DNA from: a virus | Length of the DNA stretch: 21,394 nt | Strand: one strand, 5' to 3' | IMG/VR virus record: IMGVR_UViG_3300008267_000471 | Coordinates: 1-21,394 of that record | Shown: positions 5,007 through 21,394 of the stretch, in pieces | How positions within the stretch are numbered: position 1 is the stretch's first letter | Layout of the letters: every line of letters starts with the position of its first letter | Translations under genes and position numbers: made by a program | Notes under the pieces: generated by a model | What the model was told of the DNA's origin: nothing | Database searches by the model: none | What the model saw: the letters and a program-made list of their open reading frames with translations, nothing else

Positions 5007-6692
5007 TTATTTTACATTCTTCAATATATCAGCCACTTGTTGTAAGAACATCTGTTCTCTTGCAAAGTCAGCAATCTCTTCAAAGAACCCTGAAACACTA
5101 AATCCTTTCAATTCTCCGTTCTTTACCTTCTTCCATACTTGGTCATTACGTACCTTCATTGATACAAACCAAGTACCTACAGGTAAGTCACCATAACCAT
5201 ATTTGTTTGATTTATCTTCTTTATCTTCTTTAATCCAACTCTCAACAACGTACACATCTTCCACCGCTTTACCATTATGGTTCTCATCATTGTTGTCAAT
5301 GTACTTATTCCTCATATACTTTTCAGCAATCATCTTGATTGTGTCAGCACTAAAGAATACATAGTAAGGATTACCAAATGGGTCTCTACGGAATATCTTT
5401 AAGTCAGGTATCATTGCTGGTCCCACAACCATTTTCTTTTCGTCATCAGTTTGGAACTTCTGTTTGGACATATTGGTTTTGTTAATCTCTTCCAATTTGT
5501 TTTGTGCCCATTCAATACCGGCTTGTCCACCCCAAGCATCTACCATTAAACCTCCACACCCTTCTGAGTATGGAACATCTTTATGTTGTAAATGTCTTGC
5601 GAATGATGCCATTCTTGATATAGTTTCTTCTGAGATGGCTTCACCCTTAGCAAGTTGATTTGCACGAGCTTTACCCACAGGTGTTCCACAAGAACCCCAT
5701 CCATTTTTCTCAGCCCAATCTAATGCTCTCTTTGCTGCGTTTCTTGCACTCTCAGGATAATCCGTATAACTTTCAAACGCAATAGATTTTTCTATTGTCT
5801 TTCCTGATACTTGGTCAACGTATGATGGTAAACCACCAACGTCATATCCTAACTCATCTTGGTGATATAGATATACACTATCTTCTGTATGTACAGCACC
5901 TGTCATCAATCTACCATCGGGTCCTTTGTGTGTAGGACCTTCGTATAATTTACCATCTTTTGTATAATGTGGTACACCAACTTCAAAACCTTGTTTAGAT
6001 AAACCTAAGTTCTTCTTTGTTGATGGTGATGGATTACCTAATGTTTTTTCTGTAACTGTATCAGGTTGTGGATAACCTAATAGGTCACCATAATCTTCAG
6101 TTGCAACACGGCCAGTCGTTATTGACCCTTTGTTTATAATTGTTGTATTCTTTTTATATTTAAGTTTGGCCCATCTGTGTCTGCAATTAAAACCACCTCT
6201 CCAAACCATTGCCGATTGACCAAAGTCGTTTCTAAGGTCATCCATATCTTCTACTCTCCATACAAAGTTCTTGTTCAATAAATCAGAACAAAAATCTCTT
6301 GTGGTTGCAATGATTGGTGCTTGTTTAATTCTTGGGTCTAAGATGTATTTGTAACGAATAAGATATTCACTATCCTCATCCACAAATGACGGTGCATTTG
6401 GTTTAGGTGCATTAAAAAAACTTTCCTGACCATTAACTTCAATGGATACTAATTCATAACCACCATCCAATAATTCCTGTTCAGGTTTTCCCTTTGTATA
6501 TAATAGTTCAAGATACTTACTATCTTCACCATCAGGGATATGGAAACACTCTTCAGTTGCTGAATGTTTATGTTTATTAAATGCTACCCAATTTACCTCA
6601 ATGGCTGGTTCATCAACGAGGGATATACTATCAATTCCTGATATTTCATCCTCTTCGTCAATTCTTAATTCATATACTTTATCTTTCTTCAT
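5007..6692 (-). CDS. Composite MuF-like / XkdF-like prohead protease
   Basis: Taken from the ATG at 6692 (561 residues), because the longer frame to 6797 overlaps the 42-residue gene and adds an unrelated stretch, while the family's beginning is ISGIDSISLVDEPAIEVNW (residues 17-35). Visible parts: a MuF-type end of minor head protein, RDFC ... GGFNCRHRW (132-174); a KDGKLYEGPTHK ... MTGAVHTEDS segment (245-272); a helical domain with ARNAAKRALDWAE, ISRMASFARH and WGG (316-390) seen in other phage head proteins; and an XkdF/S78_2-type protease (about 420-537) with candidate catalytic His472 in NDENHNG and Ser532 in KGFSVSGFF. It would cleave scaffold and capsid during head maturation. It lies directly before scaffold and capsid genes, as proteases usually do. 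An internal Met408 could start a separate protease form. Confidence 0.8.
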   Translation of the reverse strand: MKKDKVYELRIDEEDEISGIDSISLVDEPAIEVNWVAFNKHKHSATEECFHIPDGEDSKYLELLYTKGKPEQELLDGGYELVSIEVNGQESFFNAPKPNAPSFVDEDSEYLIRYKYILDPRIKQAPIIATTRDFCSDLLNKNFVWRVEDMDDLRNDFGQSAMVWRGGFNCRHRWAKLKYKKNTTIINKGSITTGRVATEDYGDLLGYPQPDTVTEKTLGNPSPSTKKNLGLSKQGFEVGVPHYTKDGKLYEGPTHKGPDGRLMTGAVHTEDSVYLYHQDELGYDVGGLPSYVDQVSGKTIEKSIAFESYTDYPESARNAAKRALDWAEKNGWGSCGTPVGKARANQLAKGEAISEETISRMASFARHLQHKDVPYSEGCGGLMVDAWGGQAGIEWAQNKLEEINKTNMSKQKFQTDDEKKMVVGPAMIPDLKIFRRDPFGNPYYVFFSADTIKMIAEKYMRNKYIDNNDENHNGKAVEDVYVVESWIKEDKEDKSNKYGYGDLPVGTWFVSMKVRNDQVWKKVKNGELKGFSVSGFFEEIADFAREQMFLQQVADILKNVK

Positions 6693-6706
6693 ATTATTAA
6701 ATATAA
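6693..6706 (-). promoter_or_regulatory. TTATATTTAATAAT motif, copy 2
   Basis: Exact copy directly adjacent to the chosen ATG of the protease gene, filling nearly all of the 16-base gap after the 42-residue gene. It supports the start at 6692. Confidence 0.35.
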
Positions 6707-6708
6707 AT

Positions 6709-6837
6709 TTATCTACCTTGGCCACGATACTTCTTGGGTTTCTGTGACTTAGGACCGAATGACTTTTGACCATTTGGTTGTGATTTACGTTTACCAAATG
6801 ATATTTTATTACTTGATTGTGATTTACTTTTAGCCAT
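6709..6837 (-). CDS. Very basic small protein, 42 residues
   Basis: This gene begins one base after the tape measure stop (TAATATG). The 42-residue product starts MAKSKSQSSNKISFGKRKSQ and ends PKKYRGQGR. It is almost entirely Lys, Arg, Ser, Gln and Gly with no acidic residue, so it is probably disordered and nucleic-acid- or scaffold-binding. An ORF in another frame extends over the same bases upstream of the protease gene, but the junction pattern here matches four other junctions in the window and the composition looks like a real small virion protein. Its function is unknown; a head-internal DNA-binding or assembly role is a guess. Confidence 0.6.
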   Translation of the reverse strand: MAKSKSQSSNKISFGKRKSQPNGQKSFGPKSQKPKKYRGQGR

Positions 6838-9171: not shown

Positions 9172-10710
9172 TTAACATTGTGTTGATGATAATGCCGTTA
9201 CTTGACCTGTTGATGTGTTTAAGTCCCAATTCGCACCATTCATAAATACAACTGCCCAACCTGTCAATGCGTTAGGGAACGTGTCAGTATAAACAAAACA
9301 CCCAATACCAAATGTACCTGTAGTACAATCAGAATATAATGTTCTATTATTTATACTAGCATCATTACAAGCATTTGCCACTGAATTACCATAACCACAT
9401 CCTGTAAACGAATATACTTCAGGTGCAATTGTTGGTGTAGGTGTCGGTGTAGGTGTTGCTGTTGGACCTACAGGTGTAGACGTTGGTGTCGGTGTAGGTG
9501 TACTTGTTGGTGTACTTGTTGGTGTAGGTGTAGGTGTTGAACCCGATGGTACGTATCCTGAACAATCATATCCCGTATTACAGTTACCTGTTAAATATGT
9601 TAATGTTAAATAAGATTGGTCAATACCCGTTGTTCCAATTGGGTCATATTGAACTACACTACTAATAACTTGTATACACTGATAATATGTACCTGGCCCA
9701 ACACTAAATGCTCTTGCAGTTAATACACCGTCACAATCATTATATTGAAGTGTTGCAATTGTTCCACCTTCAGGTGGAGGTAATGTACTACCTGTTACTA
9801 CAATTGGGAAACAATAACAAGGATTAGATGGTGTTGCTGTAGGTGTACTTGTTGGGGTCGGTGTTGGTGTACTTGTAGGTGTTGCAGTTGGGGTTGGTGT
9901 TGGTCCACAAATTCCACCACAAGTTGTACCTGTAGTAAGTACTGTCCACGCCGCTAAATCAGCCAAAGGAAACGCACTTCTAATTGAACCATCTTGAATA
10001 CAAGAAGTAATTGTATATGTACCTGTTGAAGATAAGAATGTATCTACATCATCACCATTACATAATGTCCATCTAATATATCCTGTATCTGTAACATTAA
10101 GTGTTCCACCTGATACACAACATACTGATACCGTTGGTGTAGGGGTTGGTGTACTTGTAGGTGTTGGTGTCGGTGTACTTGTTGCTGTAGGTGTAGGTGT
10201 AGGTGTTGGTGTTGGTATTGCACTAATTTGTTGTGAAAAACAAACAGGGAATACACATCTCTCACCAATAAACTTAACCTCAAAGTAATATGTACCATTT
10301 GTAAATGACGGAACACCAATCATTGATGGTGTCAATACAAAACTTAATCTACTAAAACCCGGCGTAACCCCACTCTCAATACGAGTAATTGGTATGTTAT
10401 TAAAAACAAATCTACCAACACATAAGAATGGTTTATAGTAATTTTGGGTCGGTCCCATCATATGTAGACTTAAAACAGATACCGCACCACTATTTCTTTC
10501 ATATGGTGTTGCACCATTTAAATCCCATATATAATCAAAACTAACGGTCATACCTGTAGAAGATACGGTTGTTGCTGAAAAAGCAATTACCTGACCACTA
10601 ACACAATTATCATTTATATCGTGTATAATTTCTACATCATATTCCGCTACCCTATTATTTGGGAATACGAAACTGTCATTGTCTATCTGACCTATATATT
10701 TCTTACTCAT
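9172..10710 (-). CDS. Multidomain virion protein with three Thr-Pro linkers
   Basis: The protein has 512 residues. Layout: an N-terminal beta-rich domain (1-165) and then three small Cys-rich domains separated by Thr/Pro/Ser linkers at about 166-193, 270-294 and 392-428 (repeating TPTPTPTSTP). Domain A (197-268) is homologous to the C-terminal module of the 1188-residue hub-like protein. Domain B (about 297-388, CYCFPIVVTGS ... GNCNTGYDCSGY) and domain C (about 433-512, FTGCGYGNSVANACND ... STQC) are unassigned; C resembles Cys-containing domains seen at ends of fibre-like proteins. It reads like beads on flexible, extended linkers, suited to display on the virion surface. It starts directly after a TTATATTTAATAAT leader. 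A glycan- or receptor-binding role is plausible but not shown. Confidence 0.7.
   Translation of the reverse strand: MSKKYIGQIDNDSFVFPNNRVAEYDVEIIHDINDNCVSGQVIAFSATTVSSTGMTVSFDYIWDLNGATPYERNSGAVSVLSLHMMGPTQNYYKPFLCVGRFVFNNIPITRIESGVTPGFSRLSFVLTPSMIGVPSFTNGTYYFEVKFIGERCVFPVCFSQQISAIPTPTPTPTPTATSTPTPTPTSTPTPTPTVSVCCVSGGTLNVTDTGYIRWTLCNGDDVDTFLSSTGTYTITSCIQDGSIRSAFPLADLAAWTVLTTGTTCGGICGPTPTPTATPTSTPTPTPTSTPTATPSNPCYCFPIVVTGSTLPPPEGGTIATLQYNDCDGVLTARAFSVGPGTYYQCIQVISSVVQYDPIGTTGIDQSYLTLTYLTGNCNTGYDCSGYVPSGSTPTPTPTSTPTSTPTPTPTSTPVGPTATPTPTPTPTIAPEVYSFTGCGYGNSVANACNDASINNRTLYSDCTTGTFGIGCFVYTDTFPNALTGWAVVFMNGANWDLNTSTGQVTALSSTQC
9427..9537 (-). repeat. Thr-Pro linker tract 3
   Basis: The longest of the three tracts, about 37 residues (392-428 of the 512-residue protein), interrupted once by VGPTA. 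It joins the second and third Cys-rich domains. Confidence 0.9.
9829..9903 (-). repeat. Thr-Pro linker tract 2
   Basis: Encodes about 25 Thr/Pro/Ser/Ala residues (270-294 of the 512-residue protein), again as a degenerate hexamer array, between the shared module and the second Cys-rich domain. Confidence 0.9.
9907..10122 (-). other. Shared NVTDTG/ADLAxW module, copy 2 (inside linker protein)
   Basis: Residues 197-268 of the 512-residue protein: C-C-x-S-G-G-T-L-N-V-T-D-T-G-Y-I-R-W, F-L-S-S-T-G, S-I-R-S-A-F-P-L-A-D-L-A-A-W, then C-G-G-I-C. It matches the last 65 residues of the hub-like protein in order and spacing. Confidence 0.75.
10132..10215 (-). repeat. Thr-Pro linker tract 1
   Basis: Encodes about 28 residues of mostly alternating Thr and Pro (residues 166-193 of the 512-residue protein). 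On the plus strand it is a degenerate GGTGTN hexamer array, interrupted by Ala/Ser codons. Confidence 0.9.
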
Positions 10711-10724
10711 ATTATTAAATATAA
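10711..10724 (-). promoter_or_regulatory. TTATATTTAATAAT motif, copy 3
   Basis: Exact copy directly adjacent to the ATG of the 512-residue linker protein. A near copy (TTATATTTAATTAT) lies at 2433-2446, before the 124-residue gene. Confidence 0.35.
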
Positions 10725-10733
10725 TTTTTTCTA

Positions 10734-12356
10734 TTAACAGTTTTGTAATTGACCCGTTGAACTTATTTGTAAAAATCCTCCGTTAGTTATTGATGTACCG
10801 TTGAAACCTGTTATTTGACCTGTAATAAGATAACTACCATTTGGTAATAGTTTACAGGTCTGTGGTGTTCCTACTATACCTGTACCTAAATTTGTGTTAT
10901 TACCCAAACTACCATCAGTATTTAAAAAGAAAATGTCGTTTGGTATTGACACACCATTATATGTTGCACCTGACCATTGACCAACGATTAAATATTTGTT
11001 TTCATCTTCGTTTAATGTTTCTGTTGTAAAAGTCAAATACGCCGGAGATAATGATGATAACCCTAAACCGTTAGGATTGAATGTTGTATCCAATGTACCA
11101 TCGTTATTTAACCTTGCAATGTTTTGTGAACAAGGTTGTCCATTATATCTATCAAACAGACCAATACATAATATTTTACCATCTGATTGTATTAATATGT
11201 TATTAACTAAAACAGTTGCACTTGTTCTTGTAAAACCTCCACGACCTGTACCGTTAAATGTTGTATCTAATTGTCCGTTTTGTGTTAATCTTAATATACA
11301 TCCAAATGTTGAACCTTGAAAAGTGTTATTACCTGTTCCAAAAAAATATGTTCTATCTTGTAAATCAATTTGACAACTAACTTGTCCACTAAATCCACTT
11401 CCTGTACCACCCGAATAATAAGTGTTATCTATTGTACCATCATAATTAAATCTAATATAAAAATTATATTCAAGACTATTAACTCTTTGAAAAATTCCTG
11501 ACACGATAATCTTACCATCACTTTGTTGTACAACATCTTGAACCATTTCACTACCACCAAGAAAACTCTCAAAAGTATACCTTGTAAAAGTACCATCTAA
11601 TGTACCATCGGTATTTAATCTACTTAAAGCATTACCCGTTGAACCTGTTACACCATTACCAACTAATACCTTTCCATCATTTTGTAATTCAATATCGTTA
11701 ACAAAAATACTTGTACCTAATGCCAACTTACTGTTAAATGTACTATCGGGTTGTGTGTAATATCTATCTATTTTTAAAACAGGACCAATTTGAGTTGTTC
11801 CACCAACGCTTCCGATATATCCTGTATTTGTAAATTGTGAAAAGACACCAACATATACATCACCATCATCGGCTACTGTTACACCAACAGATTTAGTTTT
11901 AATTTCAGAAGTTGTTGTATAAAGAAAACCACTACCTGTTAAACCTGTTAATGAACCAAATGGTGCACATCCTTGTGTTACACCCATACTAACTACAACA
12001 ATAAAATCATAACAGTTTGCACTTGGGTTAATTGGTATATTATTTACATTTAAATATCCAAATTGATTATTTCCTGTTACACCTGTTAATTGTGTTGTTT
12101 TAAGACCACCATCACCATTAACATCATCATTGGTATATTCGATTAAAAATACATTTATGTACGGTATTTGACCATAACCTGCATTTTGTACAGATGCTGA
12201 TAATGTATTACCTGAAAAGATATATGTGCTATAAAGACTATTAGCCTCAGACCATTGATAATCTCTTGTGTCTGTACCATTTATTTTTATTTCGTATAAA
12301 GGATTACCAAAAGTTTGTCTTCCTTCTTCGTATGCTATTAAAACTGAACCTCTCAT
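10734..12356 (-). CDS. Delta-60 repeat beta-propeller protein in tail module
   Basis: The protein has 540 residues. The N-terminal domain (1-150) is beta-rich and unassigned. From about residue 156 to the end I count seven degenerate repeats of the Delta-60 type (DUF5122 family; pattern V-x-D-I-x-x-Q-x-D-G-K-x-x-V-x-G ... R-L-N-x-D-G-T-L-D-x-T-F-N). They start near residues 156, 219, 272, 325, 384, 442 and 498. Clear examples are NDGKVLVGN/RLNTDGTLDGTF and QSDGKILCIG/RLNNDGTLDTTFN. Seven units fit one closed seven-bladed propeller. This family is known from secreted bacterial surface proteins. Between the hub and a linker-rich multidomain protein it is a plausible receptor-binding or virion-surface protein. 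The C-terminal residue is Cys (GQLQNC). Repeat identification is firm; function is inferred. Confidence 0.75.
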   Translation of the reverse strand: MRGSVLIAYEEGRQTFGNPLYEIKINGTDTRDYQWSEANSLYSTYIFSGNTLSASVQNAGYGQIPYINVFLIEYTNDDVNGDGGLKTTQLTGVTGNNQFGYLNVNNIPINPSANCYDFIVVVSMGVTQGCAPFGSLTGLTGSGFLYTTTSEIKTKSVGVTVADDGDVYVGVFSQFTNTGYIGSVGGTTQIGPVLKIDRYYTQPDSTFNSKLALGTSIFVNDIELQNDGKVLVGNGVTGSTGNALSRLNTDGTLDGTFTRYTFESFLGGSEMVQDVVQQSDGKIIVSGIFQRVNSLEYNFYIRFNYDGTIDNTYYSGGTGSGFSGQVSCQIDLQDRTYFFGTGNNTFQGSTFGCILRLTQNGQLDTTFNGTGRGGFTRTSATVLVNNILIQSDGKILCIGLFDRYNGQPCSQNIARLNNDGTLDTTFNPNGLGLSSLSPAYLTFTTETLNEDENKYLIVGQWSGATYNGVSIPNDIFFLNTDGSLGNNTNLGTGIVGTPQTCKLLPNGSYLITGQITGFNGTSITNGGFLQISSTGQLQNC

Positions 12357-12385
12357 ATATATGTATATATTTTATTTAAATTTAT

Positions 12386-15300
12386 TTAACACGGACTACC
12401 GCAAACTACATTGTTCCAATTCGCTAAGTCAGCAAATGGATATGCAAATCTTATTGTTGTACAATCAGCACAATCAGGTATTGTTTGTACACCTAAACTT
12501 CCAAAGTAAGTGTATACTGTACCTGATGCTGTGTCATACTTAATCCAACCTGTATCAGTTATGTTTAAAGTTGTCCCTGTTGTATATGGTGACACAGGTG
12601 TTGCGTTAGGTGCTGGTGACAATGTTACACCATTAGCCGCAGCATAACCTGCAAAGGTTCCACAATCTACGGCCGCATTGAAGAACGCTTTATTTATACC
12701 AAATTGATTAGATTGACACCATATGTTCTGAGCATTTTCATATTCACTCATACTTGGTGATAAACTTACATTATCAATAAATAATAATCTATTATCATCC
12801 TCGTTCCAAAATAAATAAGTTGGGTCATTATATTCTTCTTCAGTAATCTCAGTCATTGTATAATACCAAGTAGTACCAAATCCTGCATCTGTATAAGACG
12901 ATGTAATTCCACTTACACTACCACCCAATGCTCCAACCATATAGTCATAAAATATAGACCAATAGTAATATGTTCTTCTTATTGAATTAGGTTCTTCACC
13001 ATTGAAAGAATAAACAACACCTATTGTATTTTCTTCAGGATTAAAGTATGTTCTAAACTTATAAACTTTATTTCCTAATTCATTACAATACACATATTTA
13101 AAATATCTTGTTGGATATGGTTGTGGTCTAACATTACTATTAGTTTGTACCAATTCAACCATTGTAAGTTCAGGATTTGTCAAATCAAAACCTTCTAACT
13201 TATTAACATAGAAATATTGTTCTTGTATCTTAATTAAATCATTTGGTTTAAGATTTTTAACATCAGATAGTTTTAAATTAAATTGACCTGATAAAAATCT
13301 TGTGTTCTTATCATATAAGTTATTTACTCTATTTGAATAAAATAAATCATATATATCTTGGTCGGTATACGCATTGAAAGTAGGTATACCTAAACCAATG
13401 TCATCAGGTTCCTGTGAGTTAAATAGAATACATATACTATCGTTATTAATCTTATTACTATCAGGGTTACCATATGGCATTGTGTGTGATACAACGGTAT
13501 TAACCAATGAACCTAATGCATAGGTATTACCATCAGGACCTGGCCCGCCAGGATTTACACCCGTTGATGGTTGTATTCTAAAGAACATATTATTAATCCT
13601 AAACGCACTACCAAAGTTAAAACTCTCACCAACTGTATCTAAGAACGGTGATAAGTTTCCAAGGTTAAACATTAATCTTGGTTTTGATTTAAGACCTGTG
13701 TATCTCCATATAACCTTTTCAGAACCACCTGACGCTTGATTGTTAGATTGACCAGCATAGTTAATACCTAATGGTATACCTACGTTGTTGTCCCACTTAC
13801 GAATTACTTCAGGTGAAAAGATTGTATCAATCTTCTTTGTCTGTGATTTAAAATCTGTTGGATTATAAACTCTATTCTCTCCGTATATTAATTTGTTTCT
13901 ATCTTTAAATGTTTTGTTTGCCTCATCACCATCTTCTTGGTCTGTAAGGATTAATTCACTCTCAATAAAGTTAAGTGCCGGTTGTACCGTAAATCCTTTA
14001 TCAAACGATAACTTGTCTGTCCAATCATATATTGCACCACTACCAATATAATAGTCATACGGTTCTATAATCATCTGATTTGGAACATCAGGGTCAGGAA
14101 CAATAACAAGGTTAAATTTCTTAGCAATTGAACTAAGTATATCAATCTGTTTAATGTTTGTATCTATAACTAAACTAAAATCCACATATGTGTTTTCTGT
14201 AAATGTTACATTTGTATTAGGTGCTGCGGGTGTATATGCAAGCGGTGCTGAAGATAATCCCACATCAGATACTGATGCATTAAAACCATAGTTAAAGATA
14301 ATCTCAATAACACAACTTCCACCACCACAATCTACGAATTGATTACTTACCCAACTATATGTTGTTCCTGTTGTATTTGGTGGTATTGTTAATGACACAA
14401 TATATGGAGAGTTAGGTCCACCATAACAAGGTTGTAATTCAAAATCAAACCCTATATTAATTTGGTCAGAACATAATGCAGGTATACCTGTACCTTTTTT
14501 AACTACATAAATTGTATAAGTTCTATCTGTTCTAATATTTGGTGAACCCAAACAAATTTGAGTAGTATCTACATAACTTTCTTGTACTAACACATCCACA
14601 CCTTCTAAAGGTAATGTTTGTGGTACAGGGGTTTTATAACCGAACTTAGTACCATCAAATGAATAGTAACCATACATATACAATAACTTAAACCAAGGTG
14701 TCTCAAAGAAATTTGATTTAATTGTATATCCATAGTTTTTAAACATCAAGTTAATCAAGGCGTACATATTAAGTGCCGGTTTTAACTGATTGTCTAATAT
14801 TGGATTTAACGGTGAGTTAATTCTATAATCAGCACTCGTACCATTTGCAGCAACATAGGCGGCGTAAGTAGCGTATGTACCAATTTGATTTGTTGATGTA
14901 TATAATCTTGTTTGACTTGCAACGGTACTACCACTTAAGTTAACTGTATCACCTGTATATTCATAACCATTGTGTACAACAGGGTACATAAAAAGTGATG
15001 GTATAATTCTACCATTCTGTAATGTATTTTGATACCAAGATGCTGTAGTATTATAAACGTTGAAATAGTGATTGAAGTGCCAATCCATATCATTGTAATC
15101 AAGGTCCTTCAATAGGTTGTTACCCATTTGACCATATAGGTCCGCCACGGTTGAATATAAGGTTACATCATACTCAACCTTAGAGTTAAGTACTGACACC
15201 TTATTTAACCTCATATAACCCGTAAAATAGTTTTCATCATTCAATAATACATCAATGTTAACACGTCTTGTTACATCAAAGTATAATGAGTTTTTATCCA

Positions 15301-15952
15301 CATTATAGTAGTTCTCAAAGAACGCGTTGTTCTTTTTAGAACCTGGCAAGGATAAACCTACAGAATAATCTGAGTTTCTTTTACCAATGTCCTGTAACTC
15401 TGCAAATGATTTGTTTAACTTTAATGGAATATCTGTATATAAATCTAAAGTATCATAACTTAATACTTCACTAAAACTTGTTGTGTTGTCAGGTAAAACA
15501 TAATAAGACATTGTTGCACCTGTTGGAATTGATAATCCTGCATCCACATATATTCTGTCACCATCATAAACTTTAAAACTACCAATTAAATCTGATACAC
15601 CATATTCGTCAAATCCACCCATACCTTGTATAGTTCCATCGGGTTTTGATACAACAAATCTAATTCCGTAAAATAAAAATAAATCACTATTATTACCTGT
15701 ATAGGGTGACATATTTACATTGTAATAGAATGTACCTGTACCACCTGATACTCTCATAAAAATATTCCAATCATCACTACTACTAAAACCTGAGCCAGTT
15801 GTTGTACCTGTGATTGGTGATGTTTCTGTTCCACTACCACCATAAGTAACGTTGGTTTGATTTATTACCGATAGGGATGTATTACCTGTATATTCAATAC
15901 CTGATGGTATATTCGTTTGTACTCTTAATACTGTCTGTTGTTGTTGTGCCAT
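12386..15952 (-). CDS. Large baseplate hub-like tail protein with C-terminal Cys module
   Basis: With 1188 residues this is the largest protein in the window. After a beta-rich N-terminus (1-165) comes a segment with DIPLKLNKSFAELQDIGKRN and LPGSKKNNAFFENYY (about 174-216), a signature I associate with large tail proteins of Bacteroidota phages. A second recognisable stretch (about 597-640) has KQIDILSSIAKKFNLVIVPD followed by MIIEPYDYY and DWTDKL, like the hub domain that interacts with the tail tube. The last 65 residues (1124-1188) are a separate module, GTTLNITDTGWIKYD ... IRFAYPFADLANW ... CGSPC, homologous to an internal module of the 512-residue protein downstream. The C-terminal residue is Cys. 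The gene starts with a TAATATG junction and is followed by a 29-base AT-rich gap. Hub/tail-associated role is inferred from family resemblance and context. Confidence 0.65.
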   Translation of the reverse strand: MAQQQQTVLRVQTNIPSGIEYTGNTSLSVINQTNVTYGGSGTETSPITGTTTGSGFSSSDDWNIFMRVSGGTGTFYYNVNMSPYTGNNSDLFLFYGIRFVVSKPDGTIQGMGGFDEYGVSDLIGSFKVYDGDRIYVDAGLSIPTGATMSYYVLPDNTTSFSEVLSYDTLDLYTDIPLKLNKSFAELQDIGKRNSDYSVGLSLPGSKKNNAFFENYYNVDKNSLYFDVTRRVNIDVLLNDENYFTGYMRLNKVSVLNSKVEYDVTLYSTVADLYGQMGNNLLKDLDYNDMDWHFNHYFNVYNTTASWYQNTLQNGRIIPSLFMYPVVHNGYEYTGDTVNLSGSTVASQTRLYTSTNQIGTYATYAAYVAANGTSADYRINSPLNPILDNQLKPALNMYALINLMFKNYGYTIKSNFFETPWFKLLYMYGYYSFDGTKFGYKTPVPQTLPLEGVDVLVQESYVDTTQICLGSPNIRTDRTYTIYVVKKGTGIPALCSDQINIGFDFELQPCYGGPNSPYIVSLTIPPNTTGTTYSWVSNQFVDCGGGSCVIEIIFNYGFNASVSDVGLSSAPLAYTPAAPNTNVTFTENTYVDFSLVIDTNIKQIDILSSIAKKFNLVIVPDPDVPNQMIIEPYDYYIGSGAIYDWTDKLSFDKGFTVQPALNFIESELILTDQEDGDEANKTFKDRNKLIYGENRVYNPTDFKSQTKKIDTIFSPEVIRKWDNNVGIPLGINYAGQSNNQASGGSEKVIWRYTGLKSKPRLMFNLGNLSPFLDTVGESFNFGSAFRINNMFFRIQPSTGVNPGGPGPDGNTYALGSLVNTVVSHTMPYGNPDSNKINNDSICILFNSQEPDDIGLGIPTFNAYTDQDIYDLFYSNRVNNLYDKNTRFLSGQFNLKLSDVKNLKPNDLIKIQEQYFYVNKLEGFDLTNPELTMVELVQTNSNVRPQPYPTRYFKYVYCNELGNKVYKFRTYFNPEENTIGVVYSFNGEEPNSIRRTYYYWSIFYDYMVGALGGSVSGITSSYTDAGFGTTWYYTMTEITEEEYNDPTYLFWNEDDNRLLFIDNVSLSPSMSEYENAQNIWCQSNQFGINKAFFNAAVDCGTFAGYAAANGVTLSPAPNATPVSPYTTGTTLNITDTGWIKYDTASGTVYTYFGSLGVQTIPDCADCTTIRFAYPFADLANWNNVVCGSPC
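12389..12583 (-). other. Shared NITDTG/ADLAxW module, copy 1 (end of hub-like protein)
   Basis: Residues 1124-1188 of the hub-like protein. Pattern: G-T-T-L-N-I-T-D-T-G-W-I-K-Y, then F-x-S-x-G, Cys residues, IR-x-A-Y-P-F-A-D-L-A-x-W and a terminal C-G-S-P-C. It aligns along its whole length with residues 197-268 of the 512-residue protein. Confidence 0.75.
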
Positions 15953-15953
15953 A

Positions 15954-17540
15954 TTAGAAACCTTTACTTACAAAGTAGCCGTCAGCATACTTACAAGTTA
16001 TTCTATACTTGTTTAATTTTTGGTGTTTTTTTGTTATTGTCTCTACCTCTGTTGATAAAACCTGTATAGGTTTTAAATCTTTATAAATTCTGTCTTGTCT
16101 GTCTAATGGTGATATAAAATCAGGTAACATTTCGTATACCTGTGGTGACATAAATAATTGTTCTAACCAATTACCATATGATACATTTAACCAATCACTT
16201 TCCAATACAAACTCTCTATCTACGTTGGTATCAAAGGTTTTAACCGTTCTACCCACATTTCTGTCAGGTGATTGTTGTGATGTACTATAATATCTATTGT
16301 CAAATGTCTGACGTGTAATCTTTTTTGTGTCTTGTCTATAAGCGGTAAATGTATAATAGTCATATCCACCTCTTTGATTTAAGAACACAAGTCTTGTGTC
16401 TTGAGGTTTACAATTTTCGTTTATATAGAAATAAAACAATTCAGAAGATGGTCCAATACCACCGGCTGTTGTTCTTGTGTAATCATCAAAGAATGTTGGG
16501 TGACCATAACATAATTGTACGGTGTAATATGCAACATTACCATTACCTGTATTTAAACTACTGAATATACTCTGAATATCTTTAGGTCCACACGGTAATG
16601 CAAATATCTTTAAGGTATCTGTATATCCTGTTGTAGGTGTAGCATATGTTGTACCTGACCAATTTAGTTGTTGTTCAAAGTTTGTTATCAACTCATTGTT
16701 TTCATTATAAAAACTAAAGTTAGCCCAATCTGCTTCCATATATTGTCTATCGCCTGTTAGTCCGTTTAGATAATATAATACATAATTTTCATTGGATTGT
16801 ATAGATTGTATACGTGGAGCATCAGTCAAAAATCTTGAACTATCACTCATCTGTGGAGTGTTAGGATAATCAATATAGTATTGTGACATTGGTGATAATG
16901 TTCTATTACTATCCAACGTTAATATTGTATTGTTCTCAACCGCAGTACCTAATTCTTGGTCAAAGTTTGGTAACAGATATTTGTCTGTACCCATTTGAAA
17001 AGAACCACCTAATAAATCAAAATAGTTTCCTGTGTTTGTAAAACCACTTGCAGTAAATCCTGTGTTGGTTGCACATATTGGTATTTGAGTATAATGGTTA
17101 TAATCTGTATATCCTGATTGTGTTGTAAATCCTGATGACGCTAAATATGCATAACGATATTTAATGTTCGCCTTAATCTTATTAGGATATGGGTTATTCA
17201 AGTTAATGTGTTCCCAAGTTGAATACCAATCATTTGCATAATAGTATTGATAATGTTCTGACTTAACATAGTTAGACAAATAATCATATGGTCTGATATT
17301 AAACTTATATGTATAGGTTGCACCTGATTGTTGAACATCGTATGGAACAATTGACATTGAACCAACTTGTCTATCATCAGAAAACAATTGTACCTGTAAT
17401 TCAAGTGAGGCGTTATACGTATTACCTGTTAAAATAACTTCATACTGACCACCTCTTTGATAAATCATATCAGTTGACCTTCTTAATTGTGAACTACTAT
17501 TCAGTCCATTTGCGTATTGTGTAGGGTATCCGAAACTCAT
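15954..17540 (-). CDS. Virion structural protein, probable tail/baseplate component
   Basis: The protein has 528 residues and starts one base after the gp10-like gene. The sequence is rich in Tyr, Asn, Thr and Gln and appears almost entirely beta-stranded. An N-terminal segment (RRSTDMIYQRGGQYEVILTG, residues 20-39) and a central RLVFLNQRGGYDYYTF motif (about residues 383-398) resemble proteins found next to the hub gene in phages of Bacteroidota. The C-terminus (from about 440) looks like a compact domain ending in a strand-rich KYRITCKYADGYFVSKGF. No enzymatic motif is visible. Its position directly before the large hub-like protein, with a TAATATG junction, suggests the two work together in the distal tail. 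The precise role (distal tail protein, hub partner or peripheral baseplate) cannot be settled from sequence alone. Confidence 0.6.
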   Translation of the reverse strand: MSFGYPTQYANGLNSSSQLRRSTDMIYQRGGQYEVILTGNTYNASLELQVQLFSDDRQVGSMSIVPYDVQQSGATYTYKFNIRPYDYLSNYVKSEHYQYYYANDWYSTWEHINLNNPYPNKIKANIKYRYAYLASSGFTTQSGYTDYNHYTQIPICATNTGFTASGFTNTGNYFDLLGGSFQMGTDKYLLPNFDQELGTAVENNTILTLDSNRTLSPMSQYYIDYPNTPQMSDSSRFLTDAPRIQSIQSNENYVLYYLNGLTGDRQYMEADWANFSFYNENNELITNFEQQLNWSGTTYATPTTGYTDTLKIFALPCGPKDIQSIFSSLNTGNGNVAYYTVQLCYGHPTFFDDYTRTTAGGIGPSSELFYFYINENCKPQDTRLVFLNQRGGYDYYTFTAYRQDTKKITRQTFDNRYYSTSQQSPDRNVGRTVKTFDTNVDREFVLESDWLNVSYGNWLEQLFMSPQVYEMLPDFISPLDRQDRIYKDLKPIQVLSTEVETITKKHQKLNKYRITCKYADGYFVSKGF

Positions 17541-18252: not shown

Positions 18253-18957
18253 TTATTGATTAGCGTTTATATACGTATATACATCTGACATTTCTGTTCC
18301 TGTTAATGCTCTATTGAATATTAATAATCTATTTAAATAACATTGTATTGATGGGTCAGTCCATTGGAATGAATATCCAAATGTAAAATTCCTTGTGTTA
18401 TTCCAAAAGTTTGTTGTTGTTGTGTTAACTGTTGTTGCTACACTACTACCATCCAAATAATATTGACCATTAGTATTACCTGTTGAAGTAAAACCATATG
18501 ATTTTAATGAACCTCTTGTAGTGAGATTTGTTGTTGCTATTTGTTGACTTGAACCTGGCGCTCTCATTATAATTAATGGATTGTTTGTAAAATCTACACC
18601 CATACCATTACTATTTGTTGATTGTTTACCCCAAAATGTTTTATTAGTTGTTGATGTAACGTGCATATAACTTATGATTGTATAACCTGCGTTACTATCC
18701 CAAACACCATCTGAATTAATTTGAAATAATATACTTCTTGTTGTTCCTGAAAATACCACACCTGTTGCATTCTTTGTGTAACCACCAACAGGTATTGCAC
18801 TTACAACCGCAGTAGAACCTGGCGCATCATTAGTCCAACTTGTTGAACCAGCGGTATAGTTCCCTTGCCATAAGTTTACTGTTAAACCTGATGGGAAAGG
18901 ACTTGGTGGTGCCGCTGACACTTGTTGTTGTAAAAATGAAAATGGAGCAAAATTCAT
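18253..18957 (-). CDS. LamG/concanavalin A-like domain virion protein
   Basis: The protein has 234 residues. It starts at an ATG one base after the fibre gene's TAA (TAATATG). A short N-terminal stretch with FLQQQ and a Pro-rich PPSPFPSG segment leads into a domain that looks like a laminin-G/concanavalin-type jelly roll: a Trp-containing opening (NLWQGNYTAG), alternating beta strands and the C-terminal signature LNRLLIFNRALTGTEMSDV (about residues 207-226), which is characteristic of LamG_3-like domains. Such domains often bind glycans. In this position, between fibre and neck genes, a host-surface-binding or virion-decoration role is likely. No signal peptide typical of secretion is evident; the N-terminus is only mildly hydrophobic. 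The fold assignment rests mainly on the C-terminal signature; the ligand is unknown. Confidence 0.7.
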   Translation of the reverse strand: MNFAPFSFLQQQVSAAPPSPFPSGLTVNLWQGNYTAGSTSWTNDAPGSTAVVSAIPVGGYTKNATGVVFSGTTRSILFQINSDGVWDSNAGYTIISYMHVTSTTNKTFWGKQSTNSNGMGVDFTNNPLIIMRAPGSSQQIATTNLTTRGSLKSYGFTSTGNTNGQYYLDGSSVATTVNTTTTNFWNNTRNFTFGYSFQWTDPSIQCYLNRLLIFNRALTGTEMSDVYTYINANQ

Positions 18958-18958
18958 A

Positions 18959-21394
18959 TTATATTAAATTCTTTACGTTTGCAACATATAAGTTTGTTGT
19001 GTCAAAACTTACCATTGTTAATATATCTGTTCCAACTGTTGTTGTTGGTATGTACGCTGACCCTGATGGTTGTTTAACCGATGTAGGGAATGATACTGTA
19101 CCTGAACCCGTTGTATTTAGTTTTATGTTTATTGTTTGACCTGGCTTGATGTTTGATGGTTCAATTCTAATATCAGATGAACCTGTTAACGCTAACTCAA
19201 AGAAGTTACCATTATTTAAATTCAACGATGCGGTATTAGATGTTACCGTTAATGGTAATACATTACCTTGAACTGAACCTGTTATTACGGTACTACCATT
19301 CACAGTTAATGAACCTGTTACAGTAACATTAGCGTTAGTATGTAATGAACCTGTACCTGATTGATTTATTAATTTTAATGAGTAATCAGAACCCATATTG
19401 TTTGATTGTAATCCTGTCTCAACTAAATTACTACCTGTAATAACTGTCTGATATACTTGTGATTGTGTGGTGATTTGTGCTAAATCATAATTGGTAGAAT
19501 AGAATGTTTGGTTAGTACCGTCCAATCTTAATGCCGCTAAATTAGATGATGGATTACTATTAAATGGATTTGAATTAAAATGTAATCTTTTTGAGTTTAT
19601 AGTTCCATAAACAGTTAAAGGAAAATCACCATTACCATACATTGAAGTATTACCTGTTATGTTAATTTGTGAACCAACAATATTGTGGTCAAATGAACTT
19701 GAAGCGTTTAATGATGCTGTTAAGAATAAACGGGCACCGATAATACTATGGTCAGCCGATGAACCTGAAACACTTAATGAACCTGTTACATTTGTGTTAC
19801 CATTAACACTAAATTGACTTGTAATATTTGTACTGTTACCATTAATATAATGGTCACCTGAACCTGATACGTTTAATGAACCTGACACTGTAAGTGCCGG
19901 TTGTGATATTGATTGTGCAATTAATGTTAATGCTGGTTGACCTGCAGTCACGTGTTCTATTGTTGCAGAACCTGTTACTGTAAATACATTTGTTCCTCTA
20001 CTAACATTTAATGAACCACTCACACCAACTAATGAACCTGAAGTAACATATAAACTTGTTCTTCTATTACTTCCACCTGTACCTGTACCTATTGCAAATA
20101 CTGTTCTTGCACTATCATTTAATCCATTATCTTCACCATTCCATCTACCAAATATTGAGCTACCTTGTTGTGTTAAATTTCCTACTGAATGTGAACCCGT
20201 AATAGTTAAACCATATCCATATACTATAGAATTTCTTAAACCGGCTAAATCTGTTCCTGTTTGTTCAAGAGATACACCAATTGATTGTCCACCAATTAAG
20301 TTACCAACCAAAGGTCTTGCAACGTTTGTTGCTGGTGAACCTGCGGCATTAATAGTAAGTGCTTGACCTAATAATGTGTTTGCCGATACAACCAATGAGT
20401 TATTTGAACCTGTATTAATATATCTGTTATTAATTTCAATTATATTACCACCAAATATATTATTTGTAGATTGAATTGAACCACTTATATGTCTAAGAAT
20501 TAATTGTGGGTTTGCATTAATGTTATTACTAAAATTTGTTTGGGTTGTTAATAATGAACCTGATGCAAGTGATTGAATAGTACCAACACTTATATTAGAT
20601 TGAACCACTGAACTTTGACCTGCACCTATAGATGCGGATGGATGGTTAAAGTTTATACCTCCACCCAATAATATATTACTATTAAATGCGTGTGCGCCAT
20701 TACCTAAATTTGAACCTGTTGTTAAAGTTAAAGATAAAGCCGCTCCTAAATAGTTATTATTTGTTTGTGGTATTGTTAATGATGAAGTGTTAATTGTTGG
20801 TATGTTTGTTTGTACAAAGTTTGCATTACCTCCTATTACACTTCTTCTACCTGATGATGCTGGTAAAGTAGTACCTAAGTTCATTAGAAAGTTATTGGAA
20901 CCACTAATAAAAATTGAACTTGTTACATTTGAAATACCTGTTGGTCCTAATAAAGCTCCGCCAGGAATAAATCCAAAATTAACATCATCATTATCTAAAG
21001 ATGTTGTAATTGCATTTAGATAGTTTTGTAAATTTGTTGATGATGTGGTTGCATTATTAGCTCCTAATAAAACTAAGTTTTGTTTAAAGTCGTTTGGTTT
21101 AATTAGATTTAAACTAACATCTCCAACAAAGTTTGCTGAACCTGATACATTTAAACTACCTGTAATATTTTCTGTTCCAATAAAGTTATTTGAACCTGTT
21201 ATAGCAAATCCTAATTGTCCACCATCTTCATTTACCCACTGACCATAAGAACCTGAACGGTAAACCAATAGGTCACCAACAACAGGACTTGTAATATCCA
21301 CATCGTGAAGTTCCGTTAATTCATAACCATTATCTATGGAAATATATGCGGAACCATTATTTAATTGTGGTCTTAATACTTGACCTAATCTTAC
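18959..21394 (-). CDS. Tail fibre protein with GSLxVSGS repeats (5'-partial)
   Basis: This gene runs off the right edge. The frame stays open through the last base (the last 31 codons include VRLGQVLRPQLNNGS), so the GTG at 21301 is not the real start and at least 811 residues are visible. Near the visible N-terminus is GDLLVYRSGSYGQWVN, a motif common in phage fibre proteins. The body is rich in Gly, Ser, Asn and Thr, with repeated units of the type ITGSLNVSGS, VTGSLSVSGS and VTGSLTVNGS, and three DHxIxG units (DNA near 19850, 19745 and 19685). This pattern suggests a trimeric beta-helical or beta-prism shaft. The C-terminal 110 or so residues look like a beta-sandwich cap (ELALTGSSDIRI, GQTINIKLNTTGSGTVSFP). 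It is the most upstream gene seen and ends one base before the next start. The adhesion role is inferred from composition; no catalytic motif is visible. Confidence 0.8.
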   Translation of the reverse strand, partial: VRLGQVLRPQLNNGSAYISIDNGYELTELHDVDITSPVVGDLLVYRSGSYGQWVNEDGGQLGFAITGSNNFIGTENITGSLNVSGSANFVGDVSLNLIKPNDFKQNLVLLGANNATTSSTNLQNYLNAITTSLDNDDVNFGFIPGGALLGPTGISNVTSSIFISGSNNFLMNLGTTLPASSGRRSVIGGNANFVQTNIPTINTSSLTIPQTNNNYLGAALSLTLTTGSNLGNGAHAFNSNILLGGGINFNHPSASIGAGQSSVVQSNISVGTIQSLASGSLLTTQTNFSNNINANPQLILRHISGSIQSTNNIFGGNIIEINNRYINTGSNNSLVVSANTLLGQALTINAAGSPATNVARPLVGNLIGGQSIGVSLEQTGTDLAGLRNSIVYGYGLTITGSHSVGNLTQQGSSIFGRWNGEDNGLNDSARTVFAIGTGTGGSNRRTSLYVTSGSLVGVSGSLNVSRGTNVFTVTGSATIEHVTAGQPALTLIAQSISQPALTVSGSLNVSGSGDHYINGNSTNITSQFSVNGNTNVTGSLSVSGSSADHSIIGARLFLTASLNASSSFDHNIVGSQINITGNTSMYGNGDFPLTVYGTINSKRLHFNSNPFNSNPSSNLAALRLDGTNQTFYSTNYDLAQITTQSQVYQTVITGSNLVETGLQSNNMGSDYSLKLINQSGTGSLHTNANVTVTGSLTVNGSTVITGSVQGNVLPLTVTSNTASLNLNNGNFFELALTGSSDIRIEPSNIKPGQTINIKLNTTGSGTVSFPTSVKQPSGSAYIPTTTVGTDILTMVSFDTTNLYVANVKNLI

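Follow-up and report, generated by a model that had tools for sequence, protein, structure and literature searches.

The DNA analysed here (hereafter the window) is a viral record from IMG/VR, IMGVR_UViG_3300008267_000471, of 21,394 bases, and its main genes are all read on the minus strand. A small Cys-containing module occurs twice in it. Copy 1 (9907..10122) corresponds to residues 197-268 of a 512-aa protein with Thr-Pro linkers (open reading frame (ORF) 9172..10710), and copy 2 (12389..12583) forms the last 65 residues of a 1188-aa hub-like protein (12386..15952). At both places the minus-strand translations were as given in a preliminary description made from the sequence alone. The two copies were identical at 28/65 residues (43%) with one gap residue (BLASTP, E 4e-15), and their Smith-Waterman score of 137 lay far above the scores of shuffled sequences (mean 30, sd 5.9, maximum 58, n=2000). 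The final family profile gave no match at E <= 10 to the reversed ORFs. The in-order match noticed earlier was thereby borne out, and by sequence copies 1 and 2 are true homologues. The closing Cys pair described for both copies is indeed present in each, but it is not the same pair. In the hub copy the closing Cys residues occupy alignment columns 64 and 68 (VVCGSPC), while in the 512-aa copy they are column 68 and an extra Cys (TTCGGIC), whose partner by co-occurrence is an extra Cys at the module start.

Viral contigs were scanned for the module by pattern and tblastn, with the two copies and then a 14-sequence alignment as queries, which returned 12, 15 and 61 loci. The iterated profile reached convergence, and after a further scan based on the hub the family comprised 56 distinct copies. 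All of them lie in uncultured viral contigs, many fragmentary, and the counts refer to distinct sequences rather than to independent events. T7, N9, G14, C41 and C68 are invariant across the 56 copies and T11, D12, T13, P52 and D55 nearly so, in sequences as little as 35% identical. With significant matches over the whole length and these common residues, the copies make up one homologous family. L022 has two modules, and L140 one, that are near relatives (hhalign E 5.9e-10, 97%). Among bacterial and archaeal genomes the pattern matched 37 times and the module was confirmed in none; in phage isolate records tblastn gave no match for the two copies, and none for the whole 512-aa or 528-aa protein (the latter described below). 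Pfam, PHROGs, NCBIfam and PDB sequences held no credible match to the module, and no Ig-like family (Big domains included) was among the weak Pfam or NCBIfam matches. The impression that this is not a named domain agrees with these searches, in which no library match rose above chance. The module is a domain family not in the libraries searched, and it behaves in a known way.

Structure prediction of each copy, proposed earlier as a check, gave concordant results. AlphaFold2 with the 56-row alignment produced a model with mean pLDDT 91.1, pTM 0.73, about seven strands and no helix. For the hub C-terminus, modelled from a separate 22-row alignment, the mean was 80.4 and the module was mostly above 90. 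The strand assignments of the two module models agreed at 63/65 aligned positions, the models being only partly independent, since the module part of the 22-row alignment overlaps the hub rows of the larger one. The module is thus confidently modelled as an all-beta domain of about 65 residues.

The Cys residues showed a regular pattern. Columns 41 and 68 were Cys in 52/52 copies. Columns 0/19 were both Cys in 17/52 copies and neither in 35/52; columns 44/64 were both Cys in 40/52 and neither in 12/52. Each of the 52 copies had at least one optional pair (12 only 0/19, 35 only 44/64, 5 both). A fourth, outer pair appeared together in 5/56 copies and never as one Cys alone. Copy 1 carries the A-type staple (Cys 0/19), the invariant pair and the extra outer pair, and copy 2 the B-type staple (Cys 44/64) and the invariant pair. 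On a module tree built with the Cys columns masked, the three optional pairs required 3, 5 and 3 changes, with partners changing together, which is suggestive rather than statistically proven. Because the Cys residues come in all-or-none pairs, the module is probably stapled by two or more disulfides, the second of which can be 0-19 or 44-64.

By site, the 56 copies were distributed over the hub C-terminus (26), the hub interior (3), Thr-Pro proteins (20), inserts in homologues of a 528-aa protein (5) and other places (2). Hub homologues bear the module directly at the C-terminus; in the more distant hubs L027 and L034 it is C-terminal behind Thr-Pro linkers, and in L038/L039, L040 and L049 it lies within the hub, downstream of the point equivalent to residue ~767 of the window hub. 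Within the hub family the module is present in some members and absent from others, and other C-terminal domains are found as well. Its frequency was taken from a sample chosen by hub similarity (the best 80 of 481 relatives) and not from module-selected loci: among complete hubs, the module was the C-terminus in 22/63 and absent from that end in 41/63. Residues 167-305 of the window hub match PHROG 38559, of unknown function. Homologues of the 512-aa protein consist of a conserved anchor plus optional modules between Thr-Pro linkers, and 20/67 of them contain the present module. The anchor is N-terminal (10216..10710, minus strand; ~155-165 aa), and some homologues are anchor alone (about 163 aa); a single-sequence scan with it found 5 loci only. 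Behind copy 1 the window protein has a second Cys module (9562..9822, minus strand; CYCFPIVVTG...NCNTGYDC), with relatives on hubs L129 and L131, and a third, C-terminal one (9175..9411, minus strand; CGYGNS...GQVTALSSTQC), with a relative at the C-terminus of hub L129. The 528-aa protein (15954..17540, minus strand) has no module insert in the window. In its homologues from L004, L006, L008, L014, L036 and L072 the module is housed in an inserted, Thr-Pro-linked segment (about 290 aa; profile position ~359-362), and none of the other homologues found has this insert. The module is in these proteins an optional insert or extension on tail proteins.

Several of these genes were found interrupted or doubled. 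In the nearest relative, L003 (337-3734 of contig 3300008107_001254), an apparent frameshift around L003:2442-2448, which may be a sequencing error, divides the hub gene into ORFs of 704 and 431 codons; the same was seen in L123. An apparent frameshift or small deletion just within the module leaves the insert-bearing 528-type protein of L014 (2212-4297) as two overlapping ORFs, with the ending ...CNTIVPGIHCW. The contigs 3300044630_001916 (45 kb; L007, L011) and 3300027759_000109 (57 kb; L031, L061) each hold two sets, with two module-bearing hub genes or two module-bearing Thr-Pro proteins, which could be an assembly join of two phages or a real duplication.

Comparison with close relatives located the exchange precisely. 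The relative L010 is collinear with the window over about 11.4 kb (8 kb at 83%, then 3.4 kb at 89%), and the only break is the block 9905..10132 on the minus strand, that is, the module of the 512-aa gene. At this gap L010 has an unrelated module, whose family also occurs on other Thr-Pro proteins and on hubs. Homology to the module-less hub of L088 (5.5 kb at 79%) stops at 12609 on the minus strand, about 26 nt before the module; that hub ends ...GVTLSSAPF-stop, and the next genes are of the same kinds, with synteny intact. The module tree requires at least 9 switches of host protein. The suspicion that the module moves between tail proteins was confirmed by the 56 copies on at least three unrelated host proteins and by clean presence/absence and replacement in close relatives. 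At the level of sequence, its mobility and its exchange as a cassette between close relatives are shown. As for the breakpoints, the left one falls in the Thr-Pro linker upstream of copy 1 (10132..10215, minus strand), whose DNA resembles the other linkers, and the right one at the edge of the downstream linker (9826..9906, minus strand). The window linker segments match one another at 75-90%, and the linker DNA of the 512-aa gene is repetitive and ACA-rich for Thr (37/43 codons, vs 327/507 in other window genes). Such linker DNA could act as crossover (homology) arms; breakpoints of this kind could equally mean that only swaps at module boundaries survive.

The module belongs to a wider set. 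Hub and Thr-Pro protein have six module families in common: besides the present one, these are m2, m3, VIDAP, GDxG and DSDGSAT. The DCxG modules resemble the present one in Cys spacing (3/23 and 41/59) and in the same Y-x-D-C-x-G core, and the DCxG profile alone detects window copy 1 at E 6.3e-6; a comparison of the two families by hhalign gave E 0.0007 over 32 columns, with a probability of 26%. In the DCxG modules the second half is shorter, the extra Cys pair is a different one (1/43) and the TLN[IV]TDTG and PFADLA motifs are missing; a DCxG module had no tblastn match in phage isolate records. By sequence, the DCxG family is likely, though not proven, to be a distant relative. More tentatively, it is possible that this phage group keeps a shared pool of small disulfide-stapled modules fitting any exposed tail-protein site, in which Thr-Pro linker DNA doubles as a recombination handle. 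The result would be a natural plug-in system for changing adhesion, in which staples are swappable (Cys 0/19 for 44/64) and the fold is kept.

Delta-60/DUF5122-like stretches were likewise seen both in separate genes and in hubs. In the window, 10734-12356 encodes a DUF5122/delta-60 propeller-like protein (E 4e-29) as a separate gene, but the C-terminal part of the hubs L028, L029, L063 and L064 is made up of similar stretches, which points to tail genes that were either fused or split. The C-termini of hubs L142, L143 and L021 resemble by eye a LamG-type domain (EVIIYNRVLTAGEKTQVWNYLSNKW). A 234-aa protein of the window (18253-18957), with a weak Pfam match to TS_C (E 0.0013), has an ending similar to these LamG-type hub ends (LLIFNRALTGTEMSDVYTYINANQ).

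As to function, we lean towards an accessory adhesion module, one more likely to bind glycan than protein, that is exchanged as a cassette. A conserved anchor (the tail hub, the 528-aa protein or the Thr-Pro protein) would hold the module on the virion, and from exposed termini and loops of tail proteins the module would contact the bacterial surface, with glycan a more likely ligand than protein. Modules would be exchanged as cassettes, and for those with Thr-Pro linkers on either side the natural crossover place would be the repeated linker DNA. Adhesion is favoured because exposed, optional and interchangeable tail domains aid adhesion in 936 lactococcal phages. We infer surface exposure, adhesion and a glycan ligand in the module, and the case for surface or carbohydrate binding is one of analogy. 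The hosts are probably of the phylum Bacteroidota and the phages an aquatic group; the hub profile reached one remote contig only, in a metagenome-assembled genome labelled Bacillales, which was not used for the host assignment. Several points weigh against the adhesion reading. Searches of Pfam, PHROG, NCBIfam and PDB sequences found no ligand, binding residue or solved relative of the module, and the hub and 528-aa proteins gave no credible match to a solved structure among PDB sequences. Strong conservation of the core sequence sets the module apart from many specificity-determining tips and would also fit a structural or common-ligand role. The virion location is read from gene neighbourhood, and the hub is a putative one. 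Finally, independent co-gain or co-loss events of Cys are few (2 on well-supported branches; 3-5 in all), and the module tree rests on only 67 columns.

Other explanations were weighed against the same data. That the module instead binds another tail protein or itself, and so joins the Thr-Pro protein or the propeller to the hub, appears unlikely. The strongly conserved motif TLN[IV]TDTG[WY] would suit such a dock, as would the presence of the module on neighbouring gene products, both within one phage in the window and in L056. However, a necessary dock would be expected to co-occur, whereas in most sampled phages only one protein carries the module and many relatives have none, and in L088 and L010 the neighbouring genes are unchanged although the partner copy is missing. 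We also think it improbable that the module is an inert decoration or spacer, that is, a stable folded bead stiffening or lengthening Thr-Pro stalks, or a neutral recombination passenger. A spacer would explain why close relatives can do without it, why unrelated modules can take its place and why it sits in low-complexity linkers. Yet the invariant and near-invariant residues other than Cys imply specific selection, and a stalk-less hub C-terminal cap or an internal insert spaces nothing.

Two further alternatives concern the chemistry and the origin of the module. A zinc-binding knuckle, with the Cys residues as metal ligands rather than in disulfides, would account for the zinc-ribbon-like arrangement of four Cys in B-type copies (C-x2-C ... 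C-G-x2-C) and for the weak matches of 12/56 members to PF22910 (best E 0.0011). But four ligand Cys are not conserved together: columns 44 and 64 are jointly gone in 12 copies, in which 41 and 68 are kept and 0/19 is present instead. Such a loss would destroy a metal site and not a set of separable disulfides, which makes zinc binding very unlikely. Least credible of all is that the two window copies arose by duplication inside one phage, with no movement between phages, a history to which their presence within one 21-kb record might point. Apart from their different staple types, the two fall in different supported groups of the tree, the hub copy within a group of 17 copies from hubs (98/92), the 512-aa copy alongside L022 (99/93). 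In L010, moreover, the hub copy is shared (98%), whereas the 512-aa site holds a different module. Within-phage duplication as the origin of both copies is contradicted by the tree and by L010.

Two more window genes deserve mention. The region 18959-21394 encodes a protein that runs past the window end (811 aa or more), is rich in SGSLNVSGS-type repeats and has a weak PHROG tail-fibre match (E 0.002); it is fibre-like. In a 596-aa protein (5007-6797), the C-terminal part contains an XkdF-type protease domain (E 3.6e-20) and the N-terminal region matches phrog_2859 and phrog_33693; the protein is possibly a fusion of head genes.

If the module is indeed an adhesion domain, it offers a means of detecting adhesion modules in those uncultured phages that have no recognisable receptor-binding proteins. 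The family is new to the libraries; it is described by a profile and a confident model, and its exchange as a cassette in close relatives is demonstrated precisely. Linker repeats as crossover arms are a testable idea, and the alternative staples, if read correctly, show in compact form how one Cys pair can replace another in a small domain.

Mobile domains on tail proteins are known from other phages. BACON (PF13004), found on tail proteins of gut phages, the crAss-like ones among them, and reported to undergo single-domain horizontal transfer (PMC6949934), is in this respect like the present module. The nearest isolate relative of the window is Nonlabens phage P12024S, whose portal is 29% identical and whose hub-like protein matches at 29% over 12%. 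Its hub homologue P12024S_45 has BACON annotated near the C-terminus, in the module's place, at only E 0.0029, below the cut-off. Membership of the module in BACON was rejected, as PF13004 was not among the families matched by the 56 copies and hhalign against the P12024S_45 C-terminus gave 1.6% probability.

The closest functional parallel is found in lactococcal 936 siphophages, in which carbohydrate-binding modules (CBMs) sit on Dit, the major tail protein and the neck; two of them bound the host as GFP fusions (PMC6669499), and an evoDit gene restored full infectivity on hosts positive for exopolysaccharide (EPS) (PMC10688798). Like the 936 CBMs (evolved Dit, TpeX, neck passage structure), the present module is a small accessory domain on several unrelated proteins and optional in close relatives. 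It differs in having no sequence match to such a CBM in the libraries searched (no described CBM family or solved CBM gave a credible match in Pfam, NCBIfam, PHROG or PDB sequences), in being about 65 aa and Cys-stapled, and in often standing between Thr-Pro linkers. It also belongs to another phage group, whose hosts are probably Gram-negative, and its role is a proposed one. Smug et al. 2023 (PMC10684548) described domain mosaicism in the receptor-binding and tail proteins of phages, with fragments shuffled between otherwise unrelated tail proteins. The present analysis differs in tracing one unnamed domain across three host proteins and placing its breakpoints in linker DNA.

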